Assembly: GCA_004376375.1 (NCBI GenBank)
Contig: SOJX01000026.1
Location: forward strand, 1 to 54,502
DNA: 54,502 nt
Direction: 5' to 3'
DNA from: Planctomycetota bacterium
GTDB taxonomy: Bacteria > Planctomycetota > E44-bin39
The notes below the pieces were generated by a model, which was given only the letters and a program-made list of their open reading frames with translations, searched no databases and was not told the origin of the DNA. Made by a program: the position numbers and the translations under genes. Positions 2,866-19,811 of this stretch are shown piece after piece (position 1 is the first letter of the stretch; every line of letters starts with the position of its first letter).

Positions 2866-2894
2866 TTCTGCATTCCGAAATCCGCAATCAATAT

Positions 2895-2927
2895 GACCCG
2901 GGACCCCGGGACACAGGACCCGGGACC
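2895..2927. repeat. Degenerate heptad repeat (GGGACCC-like)
   Basis: Repeats of GACCCGGG/GACCCCGGG alternate with GGACACA at a roughly 7-bp period. The tract is also strongly self-complementary. Confidence 0.7.
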
Positions 2928-2943
2928 AATTACCGCCTTTCAG

Positions 2944-2971
2944 TTGCAGTTCCTGCAAAATCACATAGAAT
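2944..2971 (+). promoter_or_regulatory. Possible sigma-70 promoter for the gene at 3021
   Basis: TTGCAG (2944-2949) and TAGAAT (2966-2971) are spaced by 16 bp in an AT-rich stretch. Each hexamer has one or two mismatches to consensus, so this is tentative. Confidence 0.35.
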
Positions 2972-14428: not shown

Positions 14429-14457
14429 TTGACAGTTTTCAAACCGCCTGATACGAT
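14429..14457 (+). promoter_or_regulatory. Sigma-70 type promoter for the SLC12-type transporter
   Basis: TTGACA (14429-14434) and TACGAT (14452-14457) are spaced by 17 bp, 62 bp before the ATG at 14519. The short leader contains no recognisable riboswitch. Confidence 0.65.
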
Positions 14458-14518
14458 AACTGCGACCCGAGAGGGTGGTAGTACACGCCCATCAAAACGC
14501 CTCCAAGAGTGCCAGAGC

Positions 14519-16846
14519 ATGCCCCATACAGTTCACATCCAGCGCAAGAGGTTCGGAGCTTTCGGCGGCGTCTTCACTCCCTGCACGCTGACGATCCTCG
14601 GCGTTATCATGTTTCTTCGGACCGGCTACGTCGTCGGCAACGCGGGGATCGTGGGCGCGCTTTTCATACTGCTTCTTGCGAAGTTCATTACGGTTCTCAC
14701 TTCGCTTTCGCTTTCCGCGGTTGCGACCAACCAGAGAGTGAAGGGCGGGGGCGCATATTTCCTCATTTCCCGCTCGCTCGGCGTGGAGTTCGGCGGCTCG
14801 ATCGGGATCGCGTTCTTTCTGGCGCAGGCGATTTCGGTCGCGATGTATATTATAGGTTTTACCGAGGCGTTTTTTGCCCTGGGCCGGCAGATTGACCCGG
14901 CGCGGCTGGCGCAGTTCATAAACTGGTGCGCGGCCTGGATGCCGGGCGCGGGCGGTGCTGCCGCCACCGAGCATGTGAGAATGCTGGCCGCGTACCGTTT
15001 CATCGGCACGATAATCTGCATCGTCTTGGGCATGATAACGTTCGTCGGCGCCGGATGGGCGATAAGGCTTCAGTACTTTATTCTTGCTGCGCTGCTTTTT
15101 TCGGTCGGCGCCTTTTTTGCCGGCGCATTCCCGAGTTTCTCCGCCGAGACGTTGAAATCCAATCTGGCGCCCAGCGTTGCAGGCGGTTTCAAGCTGGACG
15201 GCGCGACTCTCAGGCTGCTGCCGCTGATTATTTTCACCCAGTTCGGCATTTTCTTTCCCGCCGTGACCGGCGTGATGGCCGGGGCGAACATGTCGGGCGA
15301 CCTCAAGGACCCGTCGAAGGCCATCCCGCGCGGGACTTTCATAGCCATCTTTTTCACCTTTATAATCTACACCCTCGCAATCCTGCTTCTGGGCGGGTGC
15401 TTTCAGCGCGGCGACCTCGTCGACCTGAATAAATCGACCATGATGGGCGACGTCGCGCGAATTGGATGGTGGACCGTCTACGTCGGCGTTTTTGCGGCAA
15501 CGCTTTCGAGCGCGCTCGGCAGTTTCATGGGCGCGCCCCGAATCCTGCAGGCGGTCGGGCGCGACGATATCTTCAAGTCGCTGCATACGTTCGGCCACGG
15601 CTCCGGTCCCAATGAGGAGCCCCGCCGCGCCGTGGTGGTTACGTTTATCGTCGCCGAGTTCGGAATCCTCCTCGGCGACCTGAATGCGATTGCGCCCGTG
15701 ATAACCATGTTTTTCCTGATTACTTACGGCATGCTGAACTTCGCGGCGTTCTACGAAGGCAAGGCGGAAAACCCCTCTTTCCGCCCGACGTTCCGGTTCT
15801 TCAACTGGGGGACCGGCCTTGTCGGAGCCATCGGGTGTACGGTCGTGATGTTCATCATGAACTGGCTGTGGGCGCTGGTGGCGATTTTTTTCATTTATGT
15901 CCTCTACAGGCAGATTCAGCGAAAGGAAATCGTAACCGCCTGGGGCGATGCAAAGAGCGGCATGCTTTTCAAGAAGGCACGCGACCACCTGCTCGCGCTC
16001 GAGAAAGCGGATCATCACCCGAAGAACTGGCGGCCGAAGATCCTCGTTATCTCGGGTAACCCCGCGAACCGGCCGAACCTGATACGTTTCGCCAACTGGC
16101 TGGAATGCCAGAAAGGCCTCCTGATAATCGCCGACATCATAACGTCCTCGCCCGAGAAGGTCCTCGAATCCCGCGAGGCATTCGAGAGACAGGTCCGCGA
16201 ATACCTGTCGGAGCACAACATTCACGGGCTTGCGGAGGCGGTCGTGGCCGATGATTTTGAATCAGGCTTTACGACCCTGATACAGGCCGCCGGCATCGGG
16301 CGCCTGAAACCCAACACGGTCTGCCTCGGCTGGTCCGAAGACCCCAGGAAGTTTACTCAGTACGCGGCCGGCATCAGACACGCCATCCAGCTTGCAAACG
16401 ACGTGCTTGTCGTCCGCGCAAAACATAATATCAACCCGGCCAAGAAAAAGAAGCAGATCGACGTGTGGTGGAGGGGGCTGGAAAACGGAAACCTGATGAT
16501 TATCTACGCGTACCTGCTCACGCAGAACGAGGGCTGGCGGCATGCAAAGATTCGAATCCTGAGAATTGTCCGCGATGAAGCGGACGCGCGGGCCGCGCAG
16601 GAGAGCCTCGAGAAACTCCTCGTCGCGGCGCGCGTGAAGGCGGAGGTGAAGGTAATCTGCTCCCAGGAAAAACCGCCGCACGTAATCCAGCAGGAATCCA
16701 TGGACGCCGACCTCGTTTTCCTCGGGATGGAGTCGCCGCCCATGGGGTGGGAAGAAGCGTTCATGAAAAAGATGGGCGGCTTCCTCAAGGGCCTTCCGAA
16801 TACGATTCTCGTCAAGTCCTCCGGCCGCGCGAACCTTACGGTGTGA
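14519..16846 (+). CDS. SLC12-type cation-chloride cotransporter (APC superfamily)
   Basis: The protein has 775 residues. 'FGAFGGVFTPCTLTILGVIM' at the N-terminus is the hallmark first helix of the Na-K-Cl/K-Cl cotransporter family. It is followed by 'FLRTGYVVGNAG' and about 11 more membrane helices to residue ~480, including 'GVMAGANMSGDLKDPSKAIP'. The soluble C-terminal part (500-775) resembles the SLC12 cytosolic domain ('PKILVISGNPANRPNLIRFA', and a closing 'LVFLGMESPP'). Expected substrates are K+, Na+ and Cl- in electroneutral symport, but selectivity cannot be read. I chose ATG 14519 because upstream residues overlap the -35. It ends at TGA before a bidirectional terminator. Confidence 0.92.
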   Translation: MPHTVHIQRKRFGAFGGVFTPCTLTILGVIMFLRTGYVVGNAGIVGALFILLLAKFITVLTSLSLSAVATNQRVKGGGAYFLISRSLGVEFGGSIGIAFFLAQAISVAMYIIGFTEAFFALGRQIDPARLAQFINWCAAWMPGAGGAAATEHVRMLAAYRFIGTIICIVLGMITFVGAGWAIRLQYFILAALLFSVGAFFAGAFPSFSAETLKSNLAPSVAGGFKLDGATLRLLPLIIFTQFGIFFPAVTGVMAGANMSGDLKDPSKAIPRGTFIAIFFTFIIYTLAILLLGGCFQRGDLVDLNKSTMMGDVARIGWWTVYVGVFAATLSSALGSFMGAPRILQAVGRDDIFKSLHTFGHGSGPNEEPRRAVVVTFIVAEFGILLGDLNAIAPVITMFFLITYGMLNFAAFYEGKAENPSFRPTFRFFNWGTGLVGAIGCTVVMFIMNWLWALVAIFFIYVLYRQIQRKEIVTAWGDAKSGMLFKKARDHLLALEKADHHPKNWRPKILVISGNPANRPNLIRFANWLECQKGLLIIADIITSSPEKVLESREAFERQVREYLSEHNIHGLAEAVVADDFESGFTTLIQAAGIGRLKPNTVCLGWSEDPRKFTQYAAGIRHAIQLANDVLVVRAKHNINPAKKKKQIDVWWRGLENGNLMIIYAYLLTQNEGWRHAKIRILRIVRDEADARAAQESLEKLLVAARVKAEVKVICSQEKPPHVIQQESMDADLVFLGMESPPMGWEEAFMKKMGGFLKGLPNTILVKSSGRANLTV

Positions 16847-16874
16847 CTTCGTCCCGTTGCAGTAACGTTTAAAT

Positions 16875-16910
16875 AAAAACACCCGGGGCTTCCGCTCCCG
16901 GGTGTTTTTT
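16875..16910. terminator. Bidirectional terminator between convergent genes
   Basis: AAAAACACCCGGG and CCCGGGTGTTTTT form a 13-bp stem with a nine-base loop, flanked by A and T runs on both sides. It serves the plus-strand transporter and the minus-strand selenoprotein operon. Confidence 0.9.
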
Positions 16911-16919
16911 CGGGCTTGA

Positions 16920-18041
16920 TTATTTTTTCTCTTTCTTTTCTATTTCCTTTTCAGGTTTCGCTTCCACCTTCTTTTCGGGTTTCGCTTCCACTTTTTTTTC
17001 AGGTTTCGCTTCTTCCTTTTTCTCCTGCTTTTTCGCCTGCTTTTCTTCTTTATCTATCTGCTTGCCGACAAAGCTGGCGTAGTTTTCCGCCGCTTTGGCC
17101 AGTGGGTGGTTTTCGTGTTTCAGTATGAAGTCGATCCAGGAATCCACGGCCTCTTCCTTCTTGTTCATGTTGTACAGGACGAGGCCCATATAGAATTCGG
17201 CGGCGATAATGTTGTCGTCCTTTTTGCATTTCTCGATAAAGAGCTTCAGCGCCTCGTGCGCATCCTTGAACTTCTTCAACCGAACGAGCACTTGGGCGTA
17301 TTCGTACTGGAGCTTGAATTTGTAACCGAGCAGGCCGTCCTTGTCGATCCCGGCGGTTTCTTCAAAAGCTTCACAGGCCTTTTTGAAAACTCTTTTCATC
17401 AGGTTGGCTTTCCCGGTGAGATAACAGGCTTTGGCCCTCAGCTTGTTATCGCCCTTGAGCTTTTCATTTTCAGCGACCTTGCCCAGCGTGTCGATAGCCT
17501 TGCCGACCTGTTCTATAAGGAGATATGTTTCGACGAGGTCGAGCATGGCCGTGATATCCGCTTCCTTCCCGTCGTCTTTCGCGGCGGCGGCTATCTTGTC
17601 CTTGAGGCCGACGATCGCCTTGAGCGCCTCCATCACCTTGTCGGTTTTTGACGGGTTCCATGTGTAACGCCCGATTTCCTCTTCCTCGTCGTTTATTATG
17701 ATGATCCCGATGGAGGGCCGGTATTTCATGACGAAGTCGCGGGTTTTCGGATTGATGACGTCGATTTTTACGCAGTTGAAAGAACTTTTGGCGAGATTGA
17801 TGAACTCTTCCGACTTAAACATTGAGTCGGAATAAGGGTCGGAGGGGCCGCCTCAGCCGCCGCTTGCGAAAACGTAGACAAGGACAGGCTTCTCGTTCTC
17901 GATCGCCTCGATCTGCGCGTCCATCAGGGACTCGCACCACTTGACCGCCGGTTTCTTGGGCTTTTCAGCCTCTTCCGCCGCGATGACGTATCCGGTCATA
18001 AGCAGCAGCGCCAGGAAGATAAATCCGGTTTTCCTCAGCAT
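16920..18041 (-). CDS. Exported thioredoxin-like/TPR protein with in-frame UGA (candidate selenoprotein)
   Basis: Read through UGA codon 63, the protein has 373 residues. Residues 1-21 are a signal peptide (MLRKTGFIFLALLLMTGYVI). 'KPVLVYVFASGG-U-GGPSDPYS' followed by 'FNCVKIDV' and a cis-Pro-like 'KYRPSIGIII' match a thioredoxin-like fold, with U at the place of the redox Cys and no resolving Cys at +3. Residues about 150-320 are TPR-like helices, and the tail is a Lys/Glu/Pro repeat (EAKPEKKV units). AAGGAG precedes the start. An 8-bp hairpin follows UGA by 20 bases. Ordinary gene callers would split this into a 62-residue and a 300-residue piece. Third structural gene of the CsoR-linked operon. 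Confidence 0.8.
17808..17832 (-). promoter_or_regulatory. SECIS-like hairpin in the thioredoxin-like gene
   Basis: On the minus strand TTCCGACT and AGTCGGAA form a perfect 8-bp stem with the nine-base loop CAATGTTTA. The stem starts 21 bases after the UGA (17853-17855) and the apical loop begins at +29, inside the 16-37 base window known for bacterial SECIS elements. Confidence 0.6.
17853..17855 (-). other. In-frame UGA codon 63 (candidate Sec)
   Basis: TGA between GGC-GGC and GGC-GGC codons. The same reading frame continues through 'PSDPYSDSMFKSEEF' into the thioredoxin and TPR region. Confidence 0.75.
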
Positions 18042-18116
18042 ATCGTTCTCCTTGAGTTATCTTCAGTTGAACCGGTATACCCGGCTGCGCATCATACCGT
18101 CGGGCTGAAGACGTTA

Positions 18117-18509
18117 TCAGGAATCCTTTTCCTTTTTCTCTTCCTTCTCTTCTTTTGCCTCGGTCTTGCCTTCCTTATCATCCTTTTCTTCCGGCGGTTT
18201 CCAGCCTCTCTTGGCGAGGTACTTCATGATCTTTCCGATTTTCTTTTTCAGTTTCTTGACAGTTTTCTCGTTCTCTTCCTTTTCCGCCTCGGCAAGCTGC
18301 TTTTCCAGCTTCTTCATTACCACGAGCGCTTTCTGGATTTCCTTTTTCCTTCTCTTTTCCGACGCGGATTTCGCCGCCTCAGAGTCCGGACCCACACCTT
18401 GGGTTCTGCATTTGCAGTTCCCTCAGGCCATTGCGGTGTCGGGAAGCACAAACGCGAATGCGGTAATCACGAGAACGGCCGCCAGGATGAGTGGAAAGAG
18501 TTGCTTCAT
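18117..18509 (-). CDS. Small exported helical protein with UGNCKC motif (candidate selenoprotein)
   Basis: Read through UGA codon 29, the protein has 130 residues. Residues 1-28 form a signal peptide (MKQLFPLILAAVLVITAFAF, then VLPDTAMA). The UGA falls exactly at the expected mature N-terminus, giving U-G-N-C-K-C, a UxxC redox-type motif with a second Cys two residues on. Residues 45-125 are a charged helix or coiled coil rich in Lys and Glu, with 'IGKIMKYLAKRGWKPPEE' in the middle. GGGAGGAC precedes the start. Without readthrough the product would be only a signal peptide, which argues for recoding. I know no named family. It may be a redox partner of its operon neighbours. Confidence 0.7.
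18423..18425 (-). other. In-frame UGA codon 29 (candidate Sec)
   Basis: TGA lies between a signal peptide and GGG AAC TGC AAA TGC (GNCKC), in one continuous frame. The downstream hairpin is weaker than at the other UGA sites: ACCC-AAGGUGU-GGGU starting at +19, or GGG/CCC around CUGC-AAAU-GCAG directly after UGA. Confidence 0.6.
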
Positions 18510-18580
18510 GCTGTCCTCCCGCCTGAAAAGTGTTATTTCACTTTATTTATATCCGGGTGTTTCTGCTGTAAATATCTATT

Positions 18581-19432
18581 CTACTCCCCGGATAGCTCTT
18601 TGTCCAGCGCTTTCGTCGCGATATAGTATGCGCGCTGCATCAGCGCCTTGATTATCAGCCCCGAAACCTTTTTCGGGTCTTTCCCGCTGTTGACGCTCGA
18701 GTCTATTTTGTCCCTGAAAATGGTTTTTCCCCGCCTTGTAATCGCAACTTCGCATGTTGAATACAAAAGCCTGATACCCGACGCTGCAGGCACCAGGCTG
18801 TCTCTGACTTCCACGGCATTGAACTCGAAACTGACGTGGAATTCCGCACCATTCGCGGCGGTAAGTTCGAAATCCGCGTCTTTGAAGGCCAGTGTGAAGA
18901 AGCTGTCCACGTAGCTTCTATTGTCCGGTGAAGGCCCGATGTAGGCGGTGGTGTAAGACAGTTTTTTCCCATCCGCCATGAGGAACGCCGGCTCGAGCTC
19001 TACGAGATGGCAGTCCGTGCAGCTGTCGTTATCGGTTTTCCACGTGTTCGAGAATTTCGGGTGCGTCCTGAGGTGGCATTCTCTGCAACCGATATGATGC
19101 GCGTCTCATATGCTGGGCGTTGTTTTTGTTTCATGAGGATAATGACAGGACCTGCAGTCACGTGGGGGAACCTCGGGATTGCCTTTGTATTCGTGGTGGC
19201 ATTCCACGCAGGTTATTCCGTATCCGCCGTCCTTTTCATCGGTGTAGTGCAGCATATGGCTGAAATAAAAAGTTCCCACCAGTACGGCCCGGTCGCCCAG
19301 AAGGATTACGTCAAGCGCGTTTCCTCTTGCCGGCTCATACACCAGCTTTACTTTCCCGTATCTGGTCGCCGTGCATGCGCCCGCGGATAATACGATAACC
19401 AGTATTAGGGTCAGGATAATTTTCTGTTTCAT
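18581..19432 (-). CDS. Tetraheme cytochrome c3-like lipoprotein with in-frame UGA (candidate selenoprotein)
   Basis: Read through UGA codon 109, the protein has 283 residues. The N-terminal signal ends near Cys20 (LSAGAC), so it may be a lipoprotein. Four CxxCH heme sites start at Cys75, Cys93, Cys116 and Cys138, two on each side of the UGA. Thus neither half alone makes a sensible cytochrome. The region 'FSHMLHYTD...CVECHHE' and 'PSI-U-DAHHIGCRECH' follows the cytochrome c3/c7 pattern, where the canonical sequence is P-x-L-K-D-A-F-H-x-x-C. Residues about 155-283 form an alpha/beta domain I cannot name. I chose Met at 19432; a further start at 19453 is possible. It is the first gene after the CsoR-type repressor. 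Confidence 0.82.
19075..19093 (-). promoter_or_regulatory. SECIS-like hairpin in the cytochrome gene
   Basis: On the minus strand GGTTGC and GCCACC pair with one mismatch around the loop AGAGAAT. The stem begins 16 bases after the UGA and the loop carries G in its second position, as in the bacterial SECIS consensus. Confidence 0.5.
19106..19108 (-). other. In-frame UGA codon 109 (candidate Sec)
   Basis: TGA between ATA and GAC, with two CxxCH motifs upstream and two downstream in the same frame. Confidence 0.78.
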
Positions 19433-19468
19433 TATCCGGCTCTCAGAAAGCACCGCGCGACCCGGTAT

Positions 19469-19750
19469 CTATGACGCAAACTTCCTGAAAAGCTTAAGTG
19501 TTTCGTTCAGCAGACTGCTGTTGTGATCCTTGTTATCAATCGCTTCCGCGACGCACCCCTTGAGGTGGTTTTCGAGAAGGATTGTGGCCAGGCCCTTTAT
19601 CGCCCCGCCAGCCGCGGCGACCTGTTTGAGGACGTCGAAACATTCCTTGTCCTGCTCGACAAGTTTTTTAATGCCGCGGATCTGACCCTCAATTCTGTTT
19701 ATCCTGTTAATTATACGTTCGTGTTCTTCCCGTGTGCCGCACAATGACAT
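19469..19750 (-). CDS. CsoR/RcnR-family metal-sensing repressor
   Basis: The protein has 93 residues, the normal length of the DUF156 family. 'RINRIEGQIRGIKKLVEQ' is the family signature. The ligand set is Cys37, His62 and Cys66 (ECFDVLK, ENHLKGC), which is the copper-sensing C-H-C pattern of CsoR. Persulfide sensors of the CstR type lack the His and FrmR/RcnR differ at the N-terminus. It is an all-helical DNA-binding tetramer that leaves DNA on ligand binding. GGAGG precedes the ATG and a near-consensus promoter lies at 19784-19811. The selenoprotein cytochrome follows after 36 bp, so the repressor probably controls its own operon. Confidence 0.92.
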   Translation of the reverse strand: MSLCGTREEHERIINRINRIEGQIRGIKKLVEQDKECFDVLKQVAAAGGAIKGLATILLENHLKGCVAEAIDNKDHNSSLLNETLKLFRKFAS

Positions 19751-19783
19751 ATCAACCTCCCTGAGTTACATATACATAGTATG

Positions 19784-19811
19784 AGTATAGCTCTTATGGT
19801 TACGATGTCAA
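19784..19811 (-). promoter_or_regulatory. Sigma-70 promoter of the csoR-selenoprotein operon
   Basis: On the minus strand TTGACA (19806-19811) and TATACT (19784-19789) are separated by 16 bp. The -10 region contains ATACTCATACTATG, a short repeated and partly symmetric stretch that could be a repressor site. The classical G-rich CsoR box is not seen. Confidence 0.75.

Follow-up and report, generated by a model that had tools for sequence, protein, structure and literature searches.

What is to be made of a short row of bacterial genes in which three reading frames, each for a predicted exported protein, are interrupted exactly once, and in each case by UGA? The row lies in contig SOJX01000026.1 of a Planctomycetota bacterium (assembly GCA_004376375.1), all 54,502 nucleotides of which were analysed and are called the window here. 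A preliminary description, made from the letters alone, had pointed to a near-consensus promoter, a gene for a CsoR-family regulator and three further minus-strand genes with a signal peptide and one internal TGA apiece, and had proposed that these three encode selenoproteins. The layout is as described, all three frames running from ATG to a terminal stop with a predicted signal peptide and a single internal TGA. The genes, with their candidate selenocysteine (Sec, U) codons, are as follows.

19784..19811, minus strand: promoter-like TTGACA-16-TATACT upstream of the CsoR gene, with 11 of 12 consensus matches
19469..19750, minus strand: CsoR-family regulator of 93 residues; match to PF02583 (Trns_repr_metal) at 2.2e-26, 92.5 bits against a cut-off of 22.8
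18581..19432, minus strand: gene for a tetraheme c-type cytochrome, predicted lipoprotein, one of a nine-member family with four CxxCH; UGA at codon 109, frame with TGA read as U
19106..19108, minus strand: in-frame UGA of the cytochrome, Sec candidate (U109), an invariant family column
18117..18509, minus strand: gene for a small exported protein; UGA at codon 29, frame with TGA read as U, its own terminal stop also being TGA
18423..18425, minus strand: in-frame UGA of the small protein, Sec candidate (U29, motif UGNC), TGA read as U
16920..18041, minus strand: gene for an exported thioredoxin-like/tetratricopeptide repeat (TPR) protein; UGA at codon 63 (UGGP), frame with TGA read as U
17853..17855, minus strand: in-frame UGA of the thioredoxin-like/TPR protein (U63), at the first Cys of CxxC in relatives

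Sec is very likely at all three UGAs, a reading that homology supports well for the cytochrome and the thioredoxin-like/TPR protein and that architecture alone supports for the small protein; its insertion, and export of the three products, are predictions from sequence. The fuller answer, which we favour with moderate confidence, is that a likely operon headed by CsoR encodes three exported selenoproteins constituting an envelope redox relay that is switched by Cu(I) or another soft metal.

Is the cytochrome UGA anything other than a stop that happens to have an open frame behind it? A profile built from the first five UGA-containing members was run on 392 Planctomycetota genomes and matched 21 places, in 17 of them. 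Nine Sec-cytochrome genes, in seven genomes (the window's own and G032 having two each; G, C, L and P numbers are our handles for genomes, contigs, loci and public proteins), make up the family, with products of 252-311 residues, four CxxCH and the UGA at one shared column. That codon is invariant (9/9), each gene having exactly one internal TGA and zero TAA or TAG, and the conserved core around it is U-x-[A/V]-x-H-x-x-C-x-x-C-H, which places U four residues ahead of the His in front of heme motif 3. G018 and G191 belong to one genus and their sites are almost identical, so that the nine do not count as independent and Fisher values serve for description only. In this search of the 392 genomes no Cys form was seen in the U column: the three relatives lacking both the UGA and the extended C-terminal region carry Glu, Glu and Ser there. 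Twelve of the 21 places were left out of the family, among them those of G244 and G374, with one TGA each, and of G214 and G253, with one TAG each; the TGA of G244 is behind the last CxxCH read, and that of G374 is not visible in the part displayed. The TAG listed for the G018 match is its terminal stop. A pattern scan of genome contigs for the conserved core gave 11 stretches, five of them known relatives (L071, L074, L076, L079 and L080); the other six were read as chance.

The part of the cytochrome behind the UGA has its own relatives and its own predicted fold. Two public proteins, P0007 and P0010, are 77% and 56% identical to it, and their gene models start behind the UGA, which may be what shortened them. 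An AlphaFold2 model is poor in the heme part (predicted local distance difference test, pLDDT, below 50 at residues 20-83 and 88-145) and confident behind it, where the modelled domain resembles HpaA, DUF330, LptE and CsgG.

18584..18985, minus strand: C-terminal domain of the cytochrome, residues 150-283, with a predicted LptE-like fold, entirely behind the UGA

Should the UGAs nevertheless be true stops, and the frames pseudogenes, products of sequencing error or pairs of neighbouring genes? What speaks for this concerns the small protein, with its zero homologues and a low codon score directly behind its UGA. For the row as a whole it is very improbable, given the single UGA that nine genes from seven genomes share in one column with other stops absent, the identity of the post-UGA part to the two public proteins and a domain behind the UGA that folds confidently in the model.

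Ahead of the UGA, the best PDB matches of the family profile are to the class III cytochromes HmcA and cytochrome c3, which share the CxxCH and His pattern of the heme part and do not have an LptE-like domain; the window cytochrome itself reaches 21.8 bits with PF02085 (class III cytochrome c; cut-off 22.9). We know of no Sec in class III cytochromes. By analogy with them the His before heme motif 3 would be a heme ligand. An invariant Cys closes the signal peptide in the nine genes, with a lipobox fit judged by eye as good in about half and loose in the rest, and the cytochrome is predicted to be lipid-anchored.

The window, C6 among the contigs, belongs to a genome of 5.68 Mb in 157 contigs that is 93.8% complete. 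The preliminary description had asked for a search of that genome for Sec genes, and all of them are there: selA (540.7 bits), selB adjoining it (315.1 bits against a cut-off of 242.25), a selD that carries a UGA itself and a tRNA-Sec with anticodon tca. selA is present in 10/10 genomes having a U-containing cytochrome or thioredoxin-like/TPR protein and in 241 of the 392 phylum genomes overall. Frames would be open whatever residue UGA encodes, and one could imagine a suppressor tRNA or a changed code supplying another amino acid. With tRNA-Sec, selA, selB and the UGA-containing selD in the genome, normal TGA stops at the ends of 5 of the 23 listed window open reading frames and a thioredoxin column that alternates with Cys, this is the least credible of the explanations considered, and scarcely to be entertained.

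Codon usage alone would not have proved read-through. One scan passed two of the three window sites together with an antisense artefact, and a second passed one of the three together with one other place. Over 340 kb of contig C42 the read-through scan gave 7, 6 and 3 cases for TGA, TAA and TAG, no clear excess of TGA; the scan also passes 0/6 of the N-terminal-Sec genes (considered below) in L097 and L098, and so is uninformative on their frequency.

How, then, would the ribosome be told which UGA to read? Two hairpins behind UGAs of the row are candidates for a selenocysteine insertion sequence (SECIS).

19072..19090, minus strand: SECIS-like hairpin GGUUGCAGAGAAUGCCACC over the third CxxCH codons of the cytochrome, with covariation across nine genes that is motif-specific
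17809..17831, minus strand: hairpin UCCGACUCAAUGUUUAAGUCGGA, SECIS candidate of the thioredoxin-like/TPR gene, -8.1 kcal/mol, spacing 28

The nine cytochrome genes align gap-free from the UGA through the third CxxCH, and the stem pairs codons just before this motif with the codon just behind it. Its cells are paired in 88.9% of cases, nine of them being changed on both sides, and its covariation score of 0.349 compares with a shuffled mean of 0.157 (0/500 as high) and with 0.130 for the best slid version; RNAalifold recovers the same stem. Since the codons of any CxxCH already produce some of this pairing by themselves, the same geometry was applied to each of the four motifs in every one of the nine genes. 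At motif 3, 72 of 81 cells are paired, versus 48 at motif 1, 48 at motif 2 and 51 at motif 4, and for the three outer pairs, which lie outside the motif, the figures are 22 of 27 versus 6, 10 and 11. The hairpin at the third CxxCH is the most stable of the four in seven of the nine genes, the exceptions being those of G123 and G071. It seems that the codons for the cytochrome's own third heme-binding motif also carry its SECIS. GGUUGCAGAGAAUGCCACC is much like the upper SECIS stem of Escherichia coli fdhF.

Folding of all three sites had been put forward as a check, and it bore out the cytochrome, by covariation and the motif control, and the cytochrome only. Single-site energy was rejected as proof of a SECIS, the comparative nine-gene test being used instead. 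When 15 sites were set against windows of their own genes, an N-terminal-Sec gene of G032 alone beat all (0/269) and most others were unremarkable; at the small protein site 6 of 74 own-gene windows are as stable. Codon shuffles over 13 sites gave between 2 and 52 of 60 as stable as the real site. The UCCGACUCAAUGUUUAAGUCGGA hairpin is no better than background, 89 of 317 windows and 15 of 60 codon shuffles being as stable.

For the thioredoxin-like/TPR protein the argument runs through a column that alternates. In eight aligned sequences, the window's included, four have U there, three have C and one has S (7/8 U or C); the alignment excludes G040, G114 (with a TAA inside) and G187, which is confined to the TPR region. 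AEWUHFC, ADWUGAC and CDAUAVQ are the sequences of the other UGA forms; the window protein has Pro at the second Cys position of CxxC. The family profile matches thioredoxin and DsbD structures, while the window protein alone has no thioredoxin match in Pfam at E 0.1; its place in the thioredoxin superfamily, with a redox Cys or Sec in the active-site loop, comes by way of the profile, the loop position and the U/C column. A model (pLDDT 83.7) puts U63 in a low-confidence loop between a strand at 53-58 and a helix at 69-72, with TPR helices after; one further test of the protein addresses its TPR part only. From the public protein collection it retrieved only itself, with a gene model starting behind the UGA. 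The earlier claim that coding continues behind the UGA is thus borne out by conserved frames for the cytochrome and for this protein, and the proposed comparison with homologues came out for Sec in these two; the small protein had none to offer. A candidate relative in G029 was read as chance. In G232 two thioredoxin-like/TPR genes stand in tandem (L065 53-1087 and 1102-2031, plus strand), the active site being CRWC in one and UGAC in the other.

The UGA of the small protein is the first codon after a signal peptide that by eye ends in AMA, giving a predicted mature N-terminus UGNCKC. Is Sec at the very start of an exported protein an oddity of this one gene? UGA is at a like place in eleven other signal-peptide genes, six of the window's own genome (five on C51 and one on C25) and five of G032. 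Together with a Cys-containing paralogue in the own genome they are:

L097 5571-6299, 6686-7570, 7818-8627, 14282-15076 and 15135-15953, plus strand: own-genome exported thioredoxin-like paralogues, UGA just after the signal peptide (one with Cys)
L098 7477-8343, minus strand: further paralogue of the same own-genome family
L099 7241-7966, plus strand: further paralogue of the same own-genome family
L029 2989-3963, minus strand: G032 N-terminal-Sec paralogue
L100 5795-6820, minus strand: G032 N-terminal-Sec paralogue
L101 7047-8078 and 8180-9514, plus strand: two G032 N-terminal-Sec paralogues
L102 471 on, plus strand: G032 N-terminal-Sec paralogue

The UGA column is invariant in the four G032 genes that were aligned; in the own-genome gene at L097 15276 the UGA is about 20 residues further in, after a Cys/Gly-rich stretch. 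A Gly/Pro-rich linker marks the own-genome family (AYC/UGGGGGSRPP and GGCUGGGG being examples), and the G032 proteins start VYG/UGGAG, WAG/UCPSGPP, WAG/UCPGGGG, NAG/UCPAPQ and VFG/UGGSG. Their bodies are thioredoxin-like by weak matches, some with TPRs, and nine of these proteins, with the Cys form among them, stay below every NCBIfam cut-off. Sequence ties the small protein to them by layout only and not by homology. Mammalian thioredoxin reductase has a Gly-Cys-Sec-Gly arm, and Sec, several times Cys-adjacent, is likewise on a Gly-rich flexible arm here (GGCUGGGG, GGGCUGSGG, AGUCPGGGG); the Planctomycetota Sec is N-terminal, in predicted exported proteins with thioredoxin- or TPR-like bodies, and the likeness is one of layout only.

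Three matches of the signal-peptide scan were set aside as chance-like, and a weaker N-terminal-U candidate, at L025 1967, is not among the twelve counted. A TPR/HEAAH-peptidase-like gene (L025 1910 on, plus strand), some 3 kb ahead of the second Sec-cytochrome of the own genome, has a possible N-terminal UGA (SVG/USGG). At L099 1-6752 (plus strand) there are several adjacent lipoprotein-like genes with long Gly-Thr repeats after the signal peptide.

What would govern the row? The promoter scan found eight sites in the region against a shuffle mean of 2.8, TTGACA-16-TATACT having the top score. The PF02583 match puts the regulator in the CsoR/RcnR family; its best solved relative is CsoR 4m1p (5.5e-17), with whose Cys, His and Cys its own are aligned, and these three we take to be Cu(I)-binding metal ligands. 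It also matches the NCBIfam models of FrmR and RcnR, below cut-off, and for this reason the family fold alone does not fix the ligand. The gaps between the four genes are 36, 71 and 75 bases, and by eye a terminator-like element stands behind the last of them, absent from the list of the automated scan, for which its loop is too long.

16871..16904, minus strand: intrinsic-terminator-like CACCCGGG-loop-CCCGGGTG, an eight-pair stem behind the last gene, then a T-rich tract

It is likely, from this arrangement, that the CsoR gene and the three UGA genes form one transcript.

An operon of the same kind occurs in G032, which is of another class. There a minus-strand run comprises a CsoR-family gene, a P1B-type ATPase, a thioredoxin-like protein that groups with the own genome's N-terminal-Sec family, a Sec-cytochrome and, directly behind the latter, an FmdE-like protein.

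L029 984-2018, minus strand: FmdE-like protein (PF02663) with a signal-peptide-like start

The metal-switched relay that we favour can be sketched as follows. CsoR would free the promoter upon binding Cu(I) or a like soft ligand. The tetraheme lipoprotein could serve as an electron store or carrier, with electrons moving between its hemes and the selenol, which would lie one helix turn ahead of the heme-ligand His. The UGGP thioredoxin would be a single-selenol reductant positioned by its TPRs, and the UGNCKC N-terminal peptide a mobile selenol/thiol site or a soft-metal binder, both perhaps acting on thiols and metal ions in the envelope. We infer the metal switch, the electron flow, the substrates and a role in redox defence against copper or a soft metal; the link to metal would be made by the Cys-His-Cys of the window CsoR together with the P1B ATPase of the G032 operon. 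Of the metal- or chalcogen-responsive redox chain that the preliminary description had proposed, the selenoprotein part has stood and the chain itself stays conjectural.

Several observations weigh against this relay. The window cytochrome has the weakest stem of the nine (-5.3 kcal/mol, with its register shifted by one), the hairpin energies of single sites are unexceptional beside windows of the same gene or codon shuffles, and the small protein has zero homologues in 59 relatives or in the protein collection, where 290 candidates shared words with it. Both CsoR regulators, the two thioredoxin-like proteins and that of G145 were run by tblastn on eight cytochrome loci and the window, and each query hit its own place, if any, and nothing else: neither the two thioredoxin-like proteins nor the two regulators find each other. 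The method is insensitive, as is seen from its leaving two PF02583 CsoR genes unlinked. Judged by sequence the two operons are alike in kind only, homology being demonstrated just for the cytochromes. The G032 regulator is without the Cys and has its best match to RcnR (51.7 bits against a cut-off of 138), and the ATPase beside it is over the Cd-type cut-off and under the Cu-type one; these matches therefore favour a soft or transition metal over copper alone. At the other seven cytochrome loci no such neighbours appear in the lists of open reading frames or by the same insensitive tblastn.

Might the operon, still of selenoproteins, instead be for sulfur or selenium chemistry (persulfide, polysulfide, selenite) or for envelope electron transfer, with a regulator that, like CstR, senses persulfide or selenide? 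The ligand that the family fold leaves unfixed, with below-cut-off FrmR and RcnR matches, allows for it. The selenocytochrome ExtKL has been linked by its authors to selenite reduction (PMC5877670). The window CsoR has nevertheless kept its Cys-His-Cys, the G032 operon has the P1B metal ATPase, and no sulfur or selenium gene was noticed on reading both operons. We regard this alternative as rather unlikely, and prefer the relay switched by metal.

The closest described counterparts compare as follows. ExtKL of Geobacter (NF040886; PMC1914089, PMC5877670, PMC13188914) is likewise predicted to be a multiheme c-type cytochrome, with a single UGA followed by a C-terminal region; its N-terminal part contains five CxxCH, and its stop falls between gsu2937 and gsu2936. 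The window cytochrome, unlike it, has four CxxCH, U before the third, a predicted LptE-like C-terminal domain and a CsoR neighbour, and neither it (at E 0.1) nor three relatives (at E 0.01) gave a match to NF040886. The Tso operon (TsoA, TsoB, TsoC; PMC13188914) resembles the row in having several selenoprotein genes, one of them thioredoxin-like; TsoA and TsoC were unmatched, and TsoB was matched just via the thioredoxin region (E 0.0048, 15 of 805 bits). The SAO system (PMC13188914) is a selenoprotein operon with an organometal theme and a thioredoxin-like member, SaoT; no Sao family is among the window protein matches at E 0.1 and, unlike SAO, the four genes include no ABC transporter or MerB-like protein. 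As far as these texts go, Tso and SAO are the nearest known operons in form. The same review counts 119 selenoprotein families and subfamilies, and its heme entries, in the portion consulted, are ExtKL, an octaheme tetrathionate-reductase-like cytochrome and a GSU2204-type CXXCH protein, none of which is among the NCBIfam matches of the scanned proteins. Neither NCBIfam above cut-off nor the table of that 2026 review, as accessible, holds a matching described family. This agrees with the initial impression that no system of such content had been described, within a literature that leaves out preprints and most subscription papers.

Cu(I)-sensing CsoR proteins share the family fold and the Cys-His-Cys, the difference being that the window CsoR is linked to selenoprotein genes. 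A selenoprotein operon is a known kind of thing, as is at least one selenocytochrome family; the families inside this one are apparently new. Among described systems we came across neither a Sec-cytochrome linked with a metal-type regulator nor a repeated design with Sec at the start of secreted proteins. A wider proposal, which we put forward tentatively and would back somewhat less readily than the relay itself, is that deep-branching Planctomycetota have a selenium-based envelope redox system, comprising a metal-switched operon, heme lipoproteins in which Sec is obligatory and the SECIS is in heme codons, and a class of exported proteins with Sec at the mature N-terminus, often Cys-adjacent on a Gly/Pro-rich arm that would be the exported, N-terminal analogue of the thioredoxin reductase arm. 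An entire envelope selenoproteome can go unseen when gene models are cut at UGA, as may have happened with the two public relatives of the cytochrome. If a SECIS uses the same codons as a heme-binding motif, it would illustrate how an RNA signal comes to be fixed along with a protein motif, and the system makes testable why cells pay for Sec in proteins possibly facing metals.

Elsewhere in the window, positions 2876-2957 (minus strand) have an Rfam match to the eukaryotic snoRNA SNORA5, at 31.1 barely above the gathering score of 30 and taken as most likely chance. Converging on the end of the operon from the other side, at 14429-16846 (plus strand), is a gene for a cation-chloride cotransporter-like protein with AA_permease/SLC12 matches.

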